From a virus: a stretch of DNA of 64,000 bases. Made by a program: the position numbers and the translations under genes. The notes under the pieces were generated by a model. It made no database searches and had not been told where the DNA came from. It saw only the letters and a list, made by a program, of their open reading frames with translations. The DNA lies in IMG/VR virus record IMGVR_UViG_3300025099_000012, positions 1 to 64,000 of that record. The stretch is one strand, 5' to 3'. How positions within the stretch are numbered: position 1 is the stretch's first letter; each line of letters begins with the position of its first letter. Shown here piece after piece: positions 52,436 to 57,020 of the stretch.

Positions 52436-53479
52436 TTATATTCCCAATAACCGTGTAAAGTAATTGCTGTTTATATCACTCTTGATAGGTACTCCCGTTA
52501 TGTTTTCTGCTAGCTGTTGCATTGCACTATTATTCATTAAAGCTTTGTAGTCAATAGGATCGGACTGATTAAATGCATCTGCATAGTTTGTTGTAGACGG
52601 AGCAGGCATATCTTTGATTATTGGTTTTATGTTGGGATTTTTGTAAGAATTGATTACTGCGTTTGTTGCTTCATCTTTAAATTCCTGTGCTTGTGGAATG
52701 ATACGCACATCTGGTTCGCCTGATCCATCTACATCTACTTCTACACTTCCACCTTTGTTCCCATGAATTGCATCAAACTTTGCTGGATTGAAATCCTCAC
52801 CCTTGCTAACATCTTGATTCATTACTCTGTAGTCGCTCATTAGGTCCCTTCGATCTTGAGCTTTTTCTTTTGCAACACCTTTTGTATATTCTTTGTATGC
52901 CAAAGCAGGGTTTTGTTGTGCCCATATTGCTAGATTCTCTCCATTCTTTTGACCTTTGAAATAGTCTTGCATTGCATCTTTGTTTGCTTCACCCGCTTTA
53001 AAGTTAGATGCATATTGCTCAGTAGCGTTTGGGTCTAACCGAGGACCTTTCGATAGAGGAGGTGCATCATTTAGATCTGGATCTGGATCTGGATCTGGAT
53101 CTGGATCTGGTGTGTCAACCGTTGTTTTAAAACTCTTCATCAGTGGAGTTATTGTCTTTGGCGTGAACACTGCATTGTTCCCTTGCTCTAACCCATACCA
53201 CGTGGTACCGCCTAATTGAATGGTGTTAGGTACATAGCCTTCTTTTTCCAAAAAATAATTGTCAGCATCTTGGAATTTTACATCTTTAACTAAAACTGCT
53301 GGCTTATTGTTCAAAACTGTTGAGGTTCCATCAAACCTGCCTCCAGTTTGCCCCTGCAATCCCGTAAATTTTGATCCAGGTGTCATTAATTTAGCAGTAA
53401 CCGCTTTTTGTAAAGCAACCTGTGCTTTTTTCCGAGCACTATTTGCACTTGTTGTTCTTCTTCTATTACTTGCGGGCAT
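52436..53479 (-). CDS. hypothetical protein with (Asp-Pro)n linker
   Basis: It encodes 347 residues. The N-terminus is basic (SNRRRTTSANSARKKAQ), then a small beta domain (PAVLVKDVKFQDADNYFL; TTWYGLEQGNNAVF), then an Asp-Pro repeat linker near residue 130, then a helical C-terminal half (YTKGVAKEKAQDRRDLM). First gene of the minus-strand virion block next to the divergent control region. Likely virion protein; unrecognised. Confidence 0.6.
   Translation of the reverse strand: MPASNRRRTTSANSARKKAQVALQKAVTAKLMTPGSKFTGLQGQTGGRFDGTSTVLNNKPAVLVKDVKFQDADNYFLEKEGYVPNTIQLGGTTWYGLEQGNNAVFTPKTITPLMKSFKTTVDTPDPDPDPDPDPDLNDAPPLSKGPRLDPNATEQYASNFKAGEANKDAMQDYFKGQKNGENLAIWAQQNPALAYKEYTKGVAKEKAQDRRDLMSDYRVMNQDVSKGEDFNPAKFDAIHGNKGGSVEVDVDGSGEPDVRIIPQAQEFKDEATNAVINSYKNPNIKPIIKDMPAPSTTNYADAFNQSDPIDYKALMNNSAMQQLAENITGVPIKSDINSNYFTRLLGI
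53069..53108. repeat. hexanucleotide tandem repeat GGATCT in coding sequence
   Basis: About six tandem GGATCT units encode an alternating Asp-Pro linker in the gene at 52436. Such in-frame hexamer repeats can change length by slippage without breaking the frame. Confidence 0.85.
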
Positions 53480-54141
53480 ATCTAATTTGCAAATATCTTT
53501 AATTTTACCTAATTCAAAAACTACTCTTGCTACGCTATTTCCCTATATTGTTTATTTGAAAATGATAGGAGGAGGAGAGTAGCTAGGAATTAACAAGGGA
53601 TATATACAAAACAAGCGTATTTTGCGTAGTTCGTAGTTTCGATTCAAACAAAGCAGCGCTGCATCGTGATATCAGTAATTGTCAACGTCCGCTAACACAG
53701 CCATATTTAGTTTGTACCCGAAAATAAAGACCATATACCCAAATATTCTTGGGTCAGAGTCAGCTAAATTGACATATGGCACAAAAAGATCCCCTATAGG
53801 ACCCTAAATTAGTTAGAAAATTTTCGACACGTCTAATCCCTTCTGTACCCCGGTAACCGGTGGAACAAAAAAAATAGTCACAAGTTTTACATGTGATTTT
53901 TCTTTTGATTTAACTTCTGTTAAACAGAAGGATTCAACTCAAGTTAACAACAGTTAATTTTACACAAGATGTTTCACATTTGTTTAACTTATGTTGTAAC
54001 AGTTGAGTTCTTACACATGTAACGTTCACTTAACAGAAGTATAACTTTCGTTTATACATCTGTCGTTGACGTATGTGTATTCATTGATGACTCATGTCTC
54101 ACCTCGTAGAGATGTCATCATTCCCCCTCAATTCAATTACC
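53480..54141. promoter_or_regulatory. divergent intergenic control region with palindromes
   Basis: No credible gene lies in these 660 bases, where minus-strand virion transcription and plus-strand small-gene transcription diverge. Visible elements include the palindrome GCAGCGCTGC (53653-53662), CCCAA/TTGGG (53738-53753), CTTCTGTT-A-AACAGAAG (53914-53930), TTAAC-aaca-GTTAA (about 53944-53957) and a further TTAACAGAAG near 54032. The TTAACAGAAG family repeats suggest binding sites for a regulator or an initiator. Candidate early promoter or origin region. Confidence 0.5.
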
Positions 54142-54190
54142 GAACACACTCACTCACGCCTATCGGCGTGTCTATTAGTTAGTGTTCTTT
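54142..54190 (+). terminator. array hairpin element 1
   Basis: GAACAC (54142) and GTGTTC (54182) flank the stem CACGCC-TATC-GGCGTG (54155-54170), followed by the TGTTCTTT signature. It is the first element of the array and lies just ahead of the A-depleted tract. Confidence 0.75.
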
Positions 54191-54415
54191 GCTCGTTCTG
54201 TCGTGCTCGCTGTTTTCTCCGCCTCGTTCCTCGTTGGCTTTGGCTTGGCTTTCGCTCCTCGTCGCTCCGTCTTCTGTGAGGCTCCCTCTGGTACCCCTGG
54301 CGTCTGCGCTTCTCGCGTGGCTTTGCCTCTGCTTCCGTTCGTCTTCGCCTTTTGGTGGCTGCGTCTTGCTCCTCGCGGTTGCTCGGTGTTCGTTCTTTGA
54401 GGGCTTTGCCCTCTG
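54182..54415. other. 234-nt adenine-depleted tract (3 A on plus strand)
   Basis: The plus strand has only three A (54279, 54293, 54400) in 234 nt, against about a quarter to a third elsewhere. C, G and T alternate without a simple repeat. All plus-strand frames are open simply because stop codons need A, so open frames here are not evidence for a protein. It lies between array elements 1 and 2 and ends with hairpin GAGGGC-ttt-GCCCTC (54399-54413). Confidence 0.8.
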
Positions 54416-54463
54416 AACACATTTAACTCGCTGACTCGCGAGTCTATTCATTAGTGTTCTTTT
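54415..54463 (+). terminator. array hairpin element 2
   Basis: GAACAC (54415) and GTGTTC (54454) enclose ACTCGC-TGACTC-GCGAGT (54426-54443). The loop TGACTC recurs at 58989, 59169 and 61853. Confidence 0.8.
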
Positions 54464-54475
54464 TATATAACAGCC

Positions 54476-54619
54476 ATGTTCACGATCGTTGATCTTCTCA
54501 CAATGAAGGAACTTGCTACCTTCTCCTGTCACTACAAAGCTTCCTGTCGTGTAGCAGAGATGGAAGAAGAGTTAGATGCCAAAGGAATCAAACATGAGTT
54601 CCTGATTTGGCCTGAGTAA
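54476..54619 (+). CDS. 47-residue array protein
   Basis: ATG 54476 to TAA 54619. It has a helical Cys-containing middle (LATFSCHYKASCRVAEMEEEL) and ends KHEFLIWPE; the ELxxKGIxHEFLIW pattern is that of small phage early proteins. It begins 12 nt after element 2 and ends just before element 3. Confidence 0.7.
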   Translation: MFTIVDLLTMKELATFSCHYKASCRVAEMEEELDAKGIKHEFLIWPE

Positions 54620-54622
54620 GGC

Positions 54623-54668
54623 AACACATGAGCCCGTCTATCGACGGGTCTATTTCACTGTGTTCTTT
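54623..54668 (+). terminator. array hairpin element 3
   Basis: AACACA...TGTGTT flank CCCGTC-TATC-GACGGG (inner stem), followed by CTATTTCACTGTGTTCTTT. Same layout as elements 4-7 with different stem bases. Confidence 0.8.
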
Positions 54669-54682
54669 ATGAGTATGCACTC

Positions 54683-54844
54683 ATGTCCATTCGTAATTGG
54701 GAAGCCCACCTTGAAATCCAAGGGTGCCATATCGCATCCTTCAAGTTGTCTAACCCAAACGAACTTGCGGACAAGGTGACACTGGATGACCTCCAGTTCT
54801 GCGACAAGATCACACTTGTCCCTGTCCGCTTGCCTCGTGACTGA
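54683..54844 (+). CDS. 53-residue array protein
   Basis: ATG 54683 to TGA 54844; an earlier ATG at 54669 in another frame gives a less protein-like product. It is mixed alpha/beta (RNWEAHLEIQGCHIASF, DKVTLDDLQFCDKITLVPV). Its TGA is the start of the outer repeat of element 4 (TGAACACA). Function unknown. Confidence 0.7.
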   Translation: MSIRNWEAHLEIQGCHIASFKLSNPNELADKVTLDDLQFCDKITLVPVRLPRD

Positions 54845-54891
54845 ACACAAGTGCAGGCGTCTATCGACGTCTGTATTTTTTCGTGTTCTTT
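54843..54891 (+). terminator. array hairpin element 4
   Basis: GAACAC (54843) and GTGTTC (54883) flank GGCGTC-TATC-GACGTC. The T-rich stretch after the stem (TATTTTTT) makes it a good intrinsic terminator. Confidence 0.85.
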
Positions 54892-54902
54892 ACATCAAAC
54901 AG

Positions 54903-55073
54903 ATGTACACAGTTTCCTACTTCGAAGTTCACTGTGATGACGGTATCCCTGAAGCTACTCGCCAGTACTTCAATACCTACCACGAAGCACAGGCTTACGC
55001 TAAGTCCTTCGATGACTGGGACGACGTTCGCGTTGATTACCTCCAGGTAAACACAGAACCTCTCCCCTTCTGA
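54903..55073 (+). CDS. 56-residue array protein
   Basis: ATG 54903 to TGA 55073. Strand-helix-strand with aromatics (YTVSYFEVHCDDGIPEAT, FNTYHEAQAYAKSFDDW, VRVDYLQV). This pattern, with a helix of type EAxAYAxSF, resembles small cyanophage proteins built on one beta-alpha-beta unit; the 42-residue protein at 55131 shares it. Confidence 0.7.
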   Translation: MYTVSYFEVHCDDGIPEATRQYFNTYHEAQAYAKSFDDWDDVRVDYLQVNTEPLPF

Positions 55074-55120
55074 ACACACATGGCCCGTCAATTGACGGGT
55101 CTATTTCACTGTGTTCTTTT
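55072..55120 (+). terminator. array hairpin element 5
   Basis: GAACACAC and GTGTTC enclose CCCGTC-AATT-GACGGG. It is followed by TCTATTTCACTGTGTTCTTTT, identical to element 3 downstream of the stem although the loop differs. Confidence 0.85.
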
Positions 55121-55130
55121 AATCAATCTC

Positions 55131-55259
55131 ATGATTACTATCAAATTCAACGCTCCTTACACTGGTGCACTCCGCACTCAGTCGTTCTCATCACTTGCAG
55201 AAGCTCAATCAATGATTGACTTCTATGCATCATGTGGAACTAGAGCTTGGTTTGCATAA
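55131..55259 (+). CDS. 42-residue array protein
   Basis: ATG 55131 to TAA 55259. It contains ITIKFNAPYTGALRTQSFSS and LAEAQSMIDFYASCGTRAWF, the same strand-helix-strand plan as the previous array gene. Unknown function. Confidence 0.65.
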   Translation: MITIKFNAPYTGALRTQSFSSLAEAQSMIDFYASCGTRAWFA

Positions 55260-55263
55260 CCAT

Positions 55264-55304
55264 TGAAGGCAGTCTATCGACTGCTTTCTTTCACTGTGTT
55301 CTTT
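55264..55304 (+). terminator. array hairpin element 6
   Basis: Stem GCAGTC-TATC-GACTGC followed by TTTCTTTCACTGTGTTCTTT. The left outer GAACAC arm is degenerate here. Confidence 0.75.
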
Positions 55305-55320
55305 ATATCTAATTCACACT

Positions 55321-55500
55321 ATGAGTAATCCTTACATCACGCAAATCTGTCAACAGACTGGCGCTACTGAGCGCGAAGTCGTCCGTGACATGATGCCTAC
55401 ATTTCGTCCTATGACTTTCCCTTGTGAAATCCATGGACGTCATTTCGAGTCACACGATGACTACATGAATGAGTTACACGAGTTCATAGCTGGTATGTAA
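55321..55500 (+). CDS. 59-residue array protein
   Basis: ATG 55321 to TAA 55500. Two parts: a helix resembling a small HTH-like unit (ITQICQQTGATEREVVRDM) and a His-rich C-terminus (CEIHGRHFESHDDYMNELHE). The C...H...H spacing might bind metal; not assignable to a family. Confidence 0.7.
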   Translation: MSNPYITQICQQTGATEREVVRDMMPTFRPMTFPCEIHGRHFESHDDYMNELHEFIAGM

Positions 55501-55542
55501 CACAATGGCGTCAATTGACGCCTCTATTTCATTGTGTTCTTT
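55499..55542 (+). terminator. array hairpin element 7
   Basis: A perfect outer stem AACACAATG (55499-55507) with CATTGTGTT (55530-55538) encloses GGCGTC-AATT-GACGCC. It is the best-paired copy and shows that inner and outer arms are base-paired together; the previous stop codon lies in its left arm. Confidence 0.85.
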
Positions 55543-55558
55543 CGATACTAAGTATCTC

Positions 55559-55879
55559 ATGCGTAAACTCGCAACCCTTACCAAGATGACTGCTAAAGGC
55601 TTGTCAACTTGGACATTCGCTCAATGTGACAGTGTCTACGTTGCATTCGGTGGTACTACTAACCGATGCATCGTTCTACAGACTAAACGTCACTTAGAGG
55701 ACCTTATGTCTCAATTTGTGTCCTCTTATGGTTACGAGAGACCACGTCCTAAAGCAATTAGCTTGGACGGTGTAAATCTCAAACCTATTAAGCGTGTACC
55801 CCCTTCTATGCAGAAGGAGCTTGCTCTATTAGCAGCAACTCCCTCCCCTGCAGAAGAAGAGTTGGTACCACTCTTTTGA
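55559..55879 (+). CDS. 106-residue array protein
   Basis: ATG 55559 to TGA 55879; the frame is open upstream through the hairpin, but the first Met after the TGTTCTTT signature is used in all neighbours. Beta-rich N-terminus (TWTFAQCDSVYVAFGG, NRCIVLQTKRHLEDLMS) and a Pro-rich C-terminus ending VPLF. Function unknown. Confidence 0.65.
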   Translation: MRKLATLTKMTAKGLSTWTFAQCDSVYVAFGGTTNRCIVLQTKRHLEDLMSQFVSSYGYERPRPKAISLDGVNLKPIKRVPPSMQKELALLAATPSPAEEELVPLF

Positions 55880-55893
55880 GCAATAAGAGTCTT

Positions 55894-55915
55894 GGCGTCT
55901 ATCGACGCCTTTCTC
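55894..55915 (+). terminator. array hairpin element 8 (short form)
   Basis: GGCGTC-TATC-GACGCC followed by TTTCTCCTTCT. It has no TGTGTTCTTT signature or outer arms, unlike elements 3-7. Confidence 0.75.
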
Positions 55916-55957
55916 CTTCTATGCCCTATTGGGCTTATTCACTTATCCGTTACACGT

Positions 55958-56206
55958 ATGCTCATCAAAGTTCCTGGTCAAGATCTCAATCTTCGTTTCT
56001 TCGAAAAAGTTGAGACTGTTGACGACCAGTACAACATCTACGACATTGGCGTAGAGCAGCCTGGAGAAGATGGCAAGACCATCATCGACAGCATCTGTGT
56101 CGGTGGATCTTTCTCCTATGCCAAGTCATTGGTGAAATCCATTGATGACAAAGCTGCGGCTAAGAAAGCTGATGCTTCTGACGCGTCCTCCGCCGCTGCG
56201 GCTTAG
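55958..56206 (+). CDS. 82-residue array protein
   Basis: ATG 55958 to TAG 56206. Beta-rich core (LIKVPGQDLNLRFFEKVE, YNIYDIGVEQPGEDGK, IIDSICVGGSFSYA) followed by a Lys/Ala/Ser tail. The tail ends with an Ala run. Unknown; the C-terminus may be disordered. Confidence 0.65.
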   Translation: MLIKVPGQDLNLRFFEKVETVDDQYNIYDIGVEQPGEDGKTIIDSICVGGSFSYAKSLVKSIDDKAAAKKADASDASSAAAA

Positions 56207-56218
56207 CTTGACGCCTGT

Positions 56219-56240
56219 CCCCGCTACTGCGGGGGCTTAT
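56219..56240 (+). terminator. terminator
   Basis: CCCCGC-TACT-GCGGGG then GCTTATTTTA ends the 55958 gene. Stem bases differ from the other elements. Confidence 0.85.
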
Positions 56241-56266
56241 TTTACTGTTATCCGCTAATCTGACTT

Positions 56267-56473
56267 ATGCGTATTGAAGCTCCTTTCGATCTCCCTGTAG
56301 AAGCTCTCATCGGAGCAGTCATTACAAGTGACGATGGCGCTGAACTAGGAGTTATAGCCGACGTCAGAGTGGACATTACTAATCACGAGTTTATTCTCAC
56401 TCTTGATGATGGCATTGGTCTACTCTGGAGTAATTTGAAAGACTATTCAATCAAATTCCAAGGCTCTATCTAA
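56267..56473 (+). CDS. 68-residue beta-barrel-like protein
   Basis: ATG 56267 to TAA 56473. All-beta (VEALIGAVITSDDGAELGVI, ADVRVDITNHEFILTLDDG), like a PRC-barrel or small SH3 fold: G-A-x-V-x-S-x-D-G-x-x-x-G-x-V. Overlaps the convergent gene by 8 nt. Family call is tentative. Confidence 0.6.
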   Translation: MRIEAPFDLPVEALIGAVITSDDGAELGVIADVRVDITNHEFILTLDDGIGLLWSNLKDYSIKFQGSI

Positions 56474-57020
56474 ACCCTCTAGTACTTACTTCCGTAATTT
56501 TATTTACTGGAATATTTGCCACGTCCATCCTTCTCTTTACCGAAGGTATGGCAAACGCTGCTCCTGTTAAAGCTGCTATACCTATTGAACTAGGTGTTAT
56601 GGACAACTGTCCAGGCTCCTGTTCATCTGCGGGTCCTCCGAATCCAGCAGCGATATCCATAACTCCACGACCTGCTAAGGCTACGCCTGCGGCCGGAATT
56701 ACGTATTTGGGCACTGCATTTACTACTGGCAAACCATACTCAACAACCTGACGTTGTTTCTGTCCCATATACGTTTCAGGACCATATCTACCAATTGGTC
56801 TACCCATTTTATCCCTAACTATAGGGTTATCTGTAAATGGTGAAAGCGTTGCTTTACGTAAGCTTGGGAGTCCACCTCCTATGCCTGTGCCAAGAGTACG
56901 TACAACTGGATTAGCATCCTTGTACATATCTCTGATACGTAGACTGTATCTATCATCAACGTCTTGAAGACTCTCAATGATTTGCCTAAGCATATCTCCA
57001 GCCTTACGTCTTACTTCCAT
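56466..57020 (-). CDS. hypothetical protein with apolar helices, isolated on minus strand
   Basis: It encodes 184 residues. N-terminal charged helix (AGDMLRQIIESLQDVDDRY), a Gly/Pro middle, and two apolar segments (VIPAAGVALAGRGVMDIAAG; SIGIAALTGAAFAIPS). Composition matches the virion cluster, yet it lies in the array. GGTACAATAAG at about 57041-57051 (minus strand) may be its promoter. Confidence 0.6.
   Translation of the reverse strand: MEVRRKAGDMLRQIIESLQDVDDRYSLRIRDMYKDANPVVRTLGTGIGGGLPSLRKATLSPFTDNPIVRDKMGRPIGRYGPETYMGQKQRQVVEYGLPVVNAVPKYVIPAAGVALAGRGVMDIAAGFGGPADEQEPGQLSITPSSIGIAALTGAAFAIPSVKRRMDVANIPVNKITEVSTRGFR

Follow-up and report, generated by a model that had tools for sequence, protein, structure and literature searches.

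Genome context and the small-gene array

The 64,000-nt stretch of viral DNA analysed here (the window) belongs to an S-EIV1-like cyanophage: its terminase large subunit is 54.6% identical over 97% to that of Synechococcus phage S-EIV1 (KJ410740), the other terminase matches falling below 25% among the matches listed. The structural genes run leftward from 53479, one of them (52436-53479) carrying tandem GGATCT at 53076-53110 that encodes Asp-Pro repeats, and a rightward array of small ORFs lies beyond a repeat-rich control region. This divergent control region (53820-54140, plus strand) holds a conserved GACACGTCTAATCCC, a CCGGT-ACCGG palindrome, the motif GACACGTCTAATCCCT and GGAACAAAAAAAATA and AACTTNTGTT-like repeats; it is conserved in the related loci L082, L083, L084, L085 and L232, and represents a possible origin or cluster of regulator-binding sites. 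Even in the more distant L231, L233, L234, L240, L243 and L244 the motif CCGGTGGAACAAAAAAAATA and many AACTNANGTT-like repeats are kept, with a GACACGTCTAAT-like motif ahead of CCGGTGGAACAAAAAAAATA in several of these control regions, and L231, L233 and L244 carry there a short GCTCGCTTCGCTCGCTC stretch like the 5' end of the A-poor L083 cassette described below. The match to a control-region motif in L218 was discarded as due to chance. IMGVR_UViG_3300050343_000255 (106 kb; L246 and L250), probably a chimeric assembly, contains the region in two differing copies, and in one of them the control region is scrambled.

The array is built from repeated elements of the form GAACACA, stem-TATC-stem (the loop is usually TATC) and GTGTTCTTT. 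The upstream element, at 54142-54190 on the plus strand, consists of GAACAC, the hairpin CACGCC-TATC-GGCGTG and GTGTTCTTT; the next one downstream, at 54414-54462 on the same strand, consists of TGAACACA, the hairpin ACTCGC-TGACTC-GCGAGT and GTGTTCTTT. In the remainder of the array (54476-55879, plus strand) the ORFs alternate with covarying hairpin elements, and their ATG starts lie 0-16 nt past GTGTTCTTT. Across relatives 18 different pairs of inner-stem sequences occur, pairing being preserved, and these compensating changes indicate a structured element; several of the elements score as intrinsic-terminator-like. GTGTTCTTT occurs seven times genome-wide, every time in the array, and an ATG follows within 0-16 nt in six of the seven units, while the seventh copy (54182) opens a tract that lacks any ATG. 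One array ORF (55321-55500) matches phrog_649, homologues of which are present in 223 phage records, nearly all from Synechococcus phages. Throughout 54142-55550, covarying-hairpin elements and GTGTTCTTT precede the starts and the first slots are swapped between relatives, which suggests a cassette array exchanged at its hairpin elements.

An adenine-poor tract in the first slot

A sequence-only reading had drawn attention to 54182-54415, a 234-nt tract lying right after the divergent control region and between two array elements, with A on the plus strand at 54279, 54293 and 54400 only. Recounting gave exactly these three adenines (T 92, C 76, G 63, A 3), and the placement is as described. 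The limits of the tract had to be redrawn, since its initial 9 nt (GTGTTCTTT) and its final 2 are part of the flanking array elements; the cassette proper, 54191-54413, is 223 nt long (T 85, C 75, G 60, A 3) and fills array slot 1 exactly, between two GAACAC-hairpin-GTGTTCTTT elements. The depletion starts inside GTGTTCTTT and stops at TGAACACA, that is, at the borders of the cassette. The view that such a composition lies beyond chance is borne out by a binomial P of ~4e-27 for 3 A in 223 nt, the baseline being the genome A frequency of 0.277. The next-lowest 223-nt segment in the whole 82,299-bp record has 22 A, and the tract includes A-free runs of 106 and 97 nt, the longest run elsewhere in the window being 30 nt.

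Thymine is at its normal level, so that the loss of A is specific to one strand, as had also been proposed. The GC content of 61% follows from the missing A, as does the earlier remark that all plus-strand frames are trivially open. The T:C:G proportions of the tract match those of the 10 kb around it once A is discounted (chi2 0.86, 2 d.f.), and a model in which A is replaced by any base also fits (chi2 0.36); A-to-G change or editing as the source of the tract is rejected by the base ratios (chi2 28).

Four relatives carry ordinary ORFs in this slot. In the closest of them, L082, one element, equivalent to the second one of the window, stands between the control region and an ORF; L084, L085 and L232 have differing ORFs in the first slot. 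L083, a contig from another metagenome, carries in its first slot a homologous cassette of 142 nt with 7 A (P ~3e-12), which is the lowest-A segment of that length outside this phage in the S-EIV1-like loci covered (~1 Mb, both strands). The two cassettes have both ends in common. At the 5' end (54191-54212, plus strand; GCTCGyTyTGyTCGTGC..., query 1-48 at 76%, E 0.002 in that contig) the L083 cassette starts with GCTCGCTTTGCTCGTGC and that of the window with GCTCGTTCTG-TCGTGC, single-base indels lying inside the shared stretch. At the 3' end (54395-54412, plus strand) the closing TTTGAGGGCTTTGCCCT of L083 is exact in the window, an 18-nt match that covers the hairpin GAGGGC-TTT-GCCCTC, which reaches 54413. 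Between the interiors, similarity does not exceed that of shuffled sequence (P 0.50), and the 370-nt upstream flanks are 71% identical. Whether relatives keep the A-depletion rather than the protein sequence had been put forward as a check, and L083, with its 7 A in 142 nt and unalignable interior, keeps the depletion but not the sequence. Low A was thus kept between the two cassettes although the interior sequence was not; as there are only two instances, this retention rests on one comparison.

Searches further afield added little to this pair. The tract against phages and plasmids (blastn) and the L083 cassette against phages returned chance matches only, and the short pattern GTGTTCTTTGCTCG returned unrelated contigs. 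The end hairpin together with its element was absent from the genome collection; in viral contigs it was present, within this group, in the L083 contig only, the eight other matches being without an array. No A-free tract was found in a 49-kb stretch of S-EIV1 or in a cyanomyovirus small-gene region, and Rfam gave 0 matches across 53400-56500 at E <= 5. Relative to dinucleotide shuffles, the fold stability of the tract is not unusual in the window (z -1.25), only in L083 (z -2.56).

Coding and other explanations for the missing adenine

The tract has no ATG ORF within 0-16 nt of GTGTTCTTT; it does have a GTG at 12 nt, which opens a candidate hydrophobic ORF of 65 aa (54203-54400, plus strand) in frame to the TGA at 54400. 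It could be, like the other ORF units of the array, an ordinary small gene whose codon use is extreme; it would encode a probable membrane peptide, A being rare through the choice of amino acids and codons. All other array units are indeed ORFs, the spacing of the GTG is that of the other starts, and L232 appears to start with GTG 13 nt past GTGTTCTTT. A GTG and a TGA are in register in L083 also (38 codons), and codon phase in the GTG frame is coding-like in the window (P 0.006). However, codon phase does not reach significance in L083 (P 0.10), no resemblance is evident between the peptides of 65 and 38 residues, and the common 5' end has the indels noted above. Pfam and PHROGs gave no match to the reading frames of the window tract, and any A-free sequence would yield a hydrophobic open frame. 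Moreover, the untranslated ends are also without A and, if the GTG frame is read, the log10 P for A-free choice among synonymous codons throughout lies between -8 and -12 in the window and between -3.3 and -5.8 in L083. Avoidance of A at synonymous sites implies a constraint at the nucleotide level, whether or not the tract is translated, and we consider a small gene of this kind an unlikely, though serious, explanation. Coding on the minus strand of the window tract was rejected (P 0.85). Avoidance of start codons was likewise rejected as the cause of the A loss, GTG and TTG being as frequent as in shuffles.

The depletion might also be a by-product without selected function, through expansion of A-free words (CTCG, GCTC, GGCT) or through strand-specific loss of A, for example by repeated self-templated adenine mutagenesis. 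CTCG, GCTC, TCGT and GGCT do recur in the tract, replacement of A by any base explains the base ratios as well as its removal does, and the cassette is dispensable, being missing from four relatives. On the other hand, mutagenesis confined to adenine would leave homologues matching at their non-A positions, which they do not; neutral sequence so diverged should have regained A; and adenine mutagenesis by a resident reverse transcriptase is not supported, PF00078 being absent from this record and six related ones. We hold such an origin to be improbable. A replication element had been entertained in the sequence-only reading, and the adjoining repeat-rich control region, conserved across relatives, brings to mind an element that acts in replication or packaging at the DNA level, next to an iteron-like origin. 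L082, L084, L085 and L232 nevertheless keep that region without the tract, so that a replication element is not supported; a GC content of 61% is unlike that of an unwinding element, and a constraint on the duplex would not normally spare T. This explanation is very unlikely. As for an assembly artefact or chimera, the window phage is a single metagenomic contig, but a homologous cassette sits at the corresponding place, with both ends shared, in an independent contig that comes from a different metagenome, on which grounds the artefact is rejected, and the borders of the tract coincide with array elements; we regard an artefact as extremely improbable.

A possible adenine-free transcript and its relation to known systems

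The strand asymmetry points to a constraint on a single strand, most simply as RNA, or to a strand-specific mutational process, and since the depletion fits the borders of the cassette, the cassette transcript would be the unit concerned. Our preference, a tentative one held with somewhat less than even confidence, is that the tract is an exchangeable accessory cassette of slot 1 whose plus-strand transcript is kept nearly A-free by selection on the nucleic acid and not on a protein. Rightward transcription of such a cassette between its two hairpin elements could yield a short, separate RNA, which may encode the GTG-started peptide as well. The absence of A would remove the signals of adenine-dependent host RNases, e.g. 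cyanobacterial RNase E, and the A-free RNA could so persist in an infected cell with raised RNase E; an A-less RNA that avoids cleavage was among the readings first put forward from the sequence.

MazF-type toxins need A in their target (e.g. ACA), and the tract has zero ACA sites. Sites with the RNase E-type consensus (A at -3/-4, U at +2) drop from ~12.6 to 1.35 per 100 nt, this being the signature mapped for the cyanobacterial enzyme (PMC10989929). Host RNase E is itself reported to be induced during infection by a cyanophage transcription factor (PMC9692554). Few RNase E-type sites, no ACA and phage-raised RNase E together favour an A-free, long-lived RNA as the product. Since the loss of both kinds of site follows automatically from the loss of A, the counts do not identify the selected property, and any A-dependent process could be the cause of the depletion. 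The escape from RNases, taken alone, is perhaps doubtful, and we regard it as the weakest step of the proposed mechanism.

What selection normally preserves is a sequence or a fold; in this cassette the interior seems free to vary and it is the absence of one base that is kept, as if the constraint were on the alphabet. The tract is real and unusual, it has a homologue but matches no known family, and the constraint on its composition is clear. Some cyanophages may, more speculatively and with considerable doubt on our part, carry an accessory RNA defined by its alphabet (G, C and U), which would be selected to lack adenine and so go unseen by those RNases of the host or of defence systems that depend on adenine, its sequence being free to drift. 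If this holds, nature would have supplied both a means of testing which processes in the cell depend on reading adenine in RNA (RNase E, MazF-like toxins or further defence nucleases) and a design for stable RNA in cyanobacteria. No phage RNA free of adenine is known to us, nor did a narrow search of the literature bring one to light.

Several known systems bear comparison with the tract. Diversity-generating retroelements are alike in their adenine-specific signature and GC-rich 3' hairpin; the tract differs from these in that neither this nor the related records hold a reverse transcriptase and in that it has no template repeat, the sole match in a search for one being the tract itself. The small accessory gene cassettes of S-EIV1-like phages and the small-gene runs of marine Synechococcus phages resemble it in their position in an array of short ORFs and in their exchange between relatives, but the tract has no ATG, almost no A and no recognisable protein. 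Finally, phage small non-coding RNAs would be similar in occupying a short, apparently non-coding interval, bounded by hairpins and near a control region; from these the tract is set apart by its lack of an Rfam match, and because its defining trait is the want of one base, not a particular sequence or structure.
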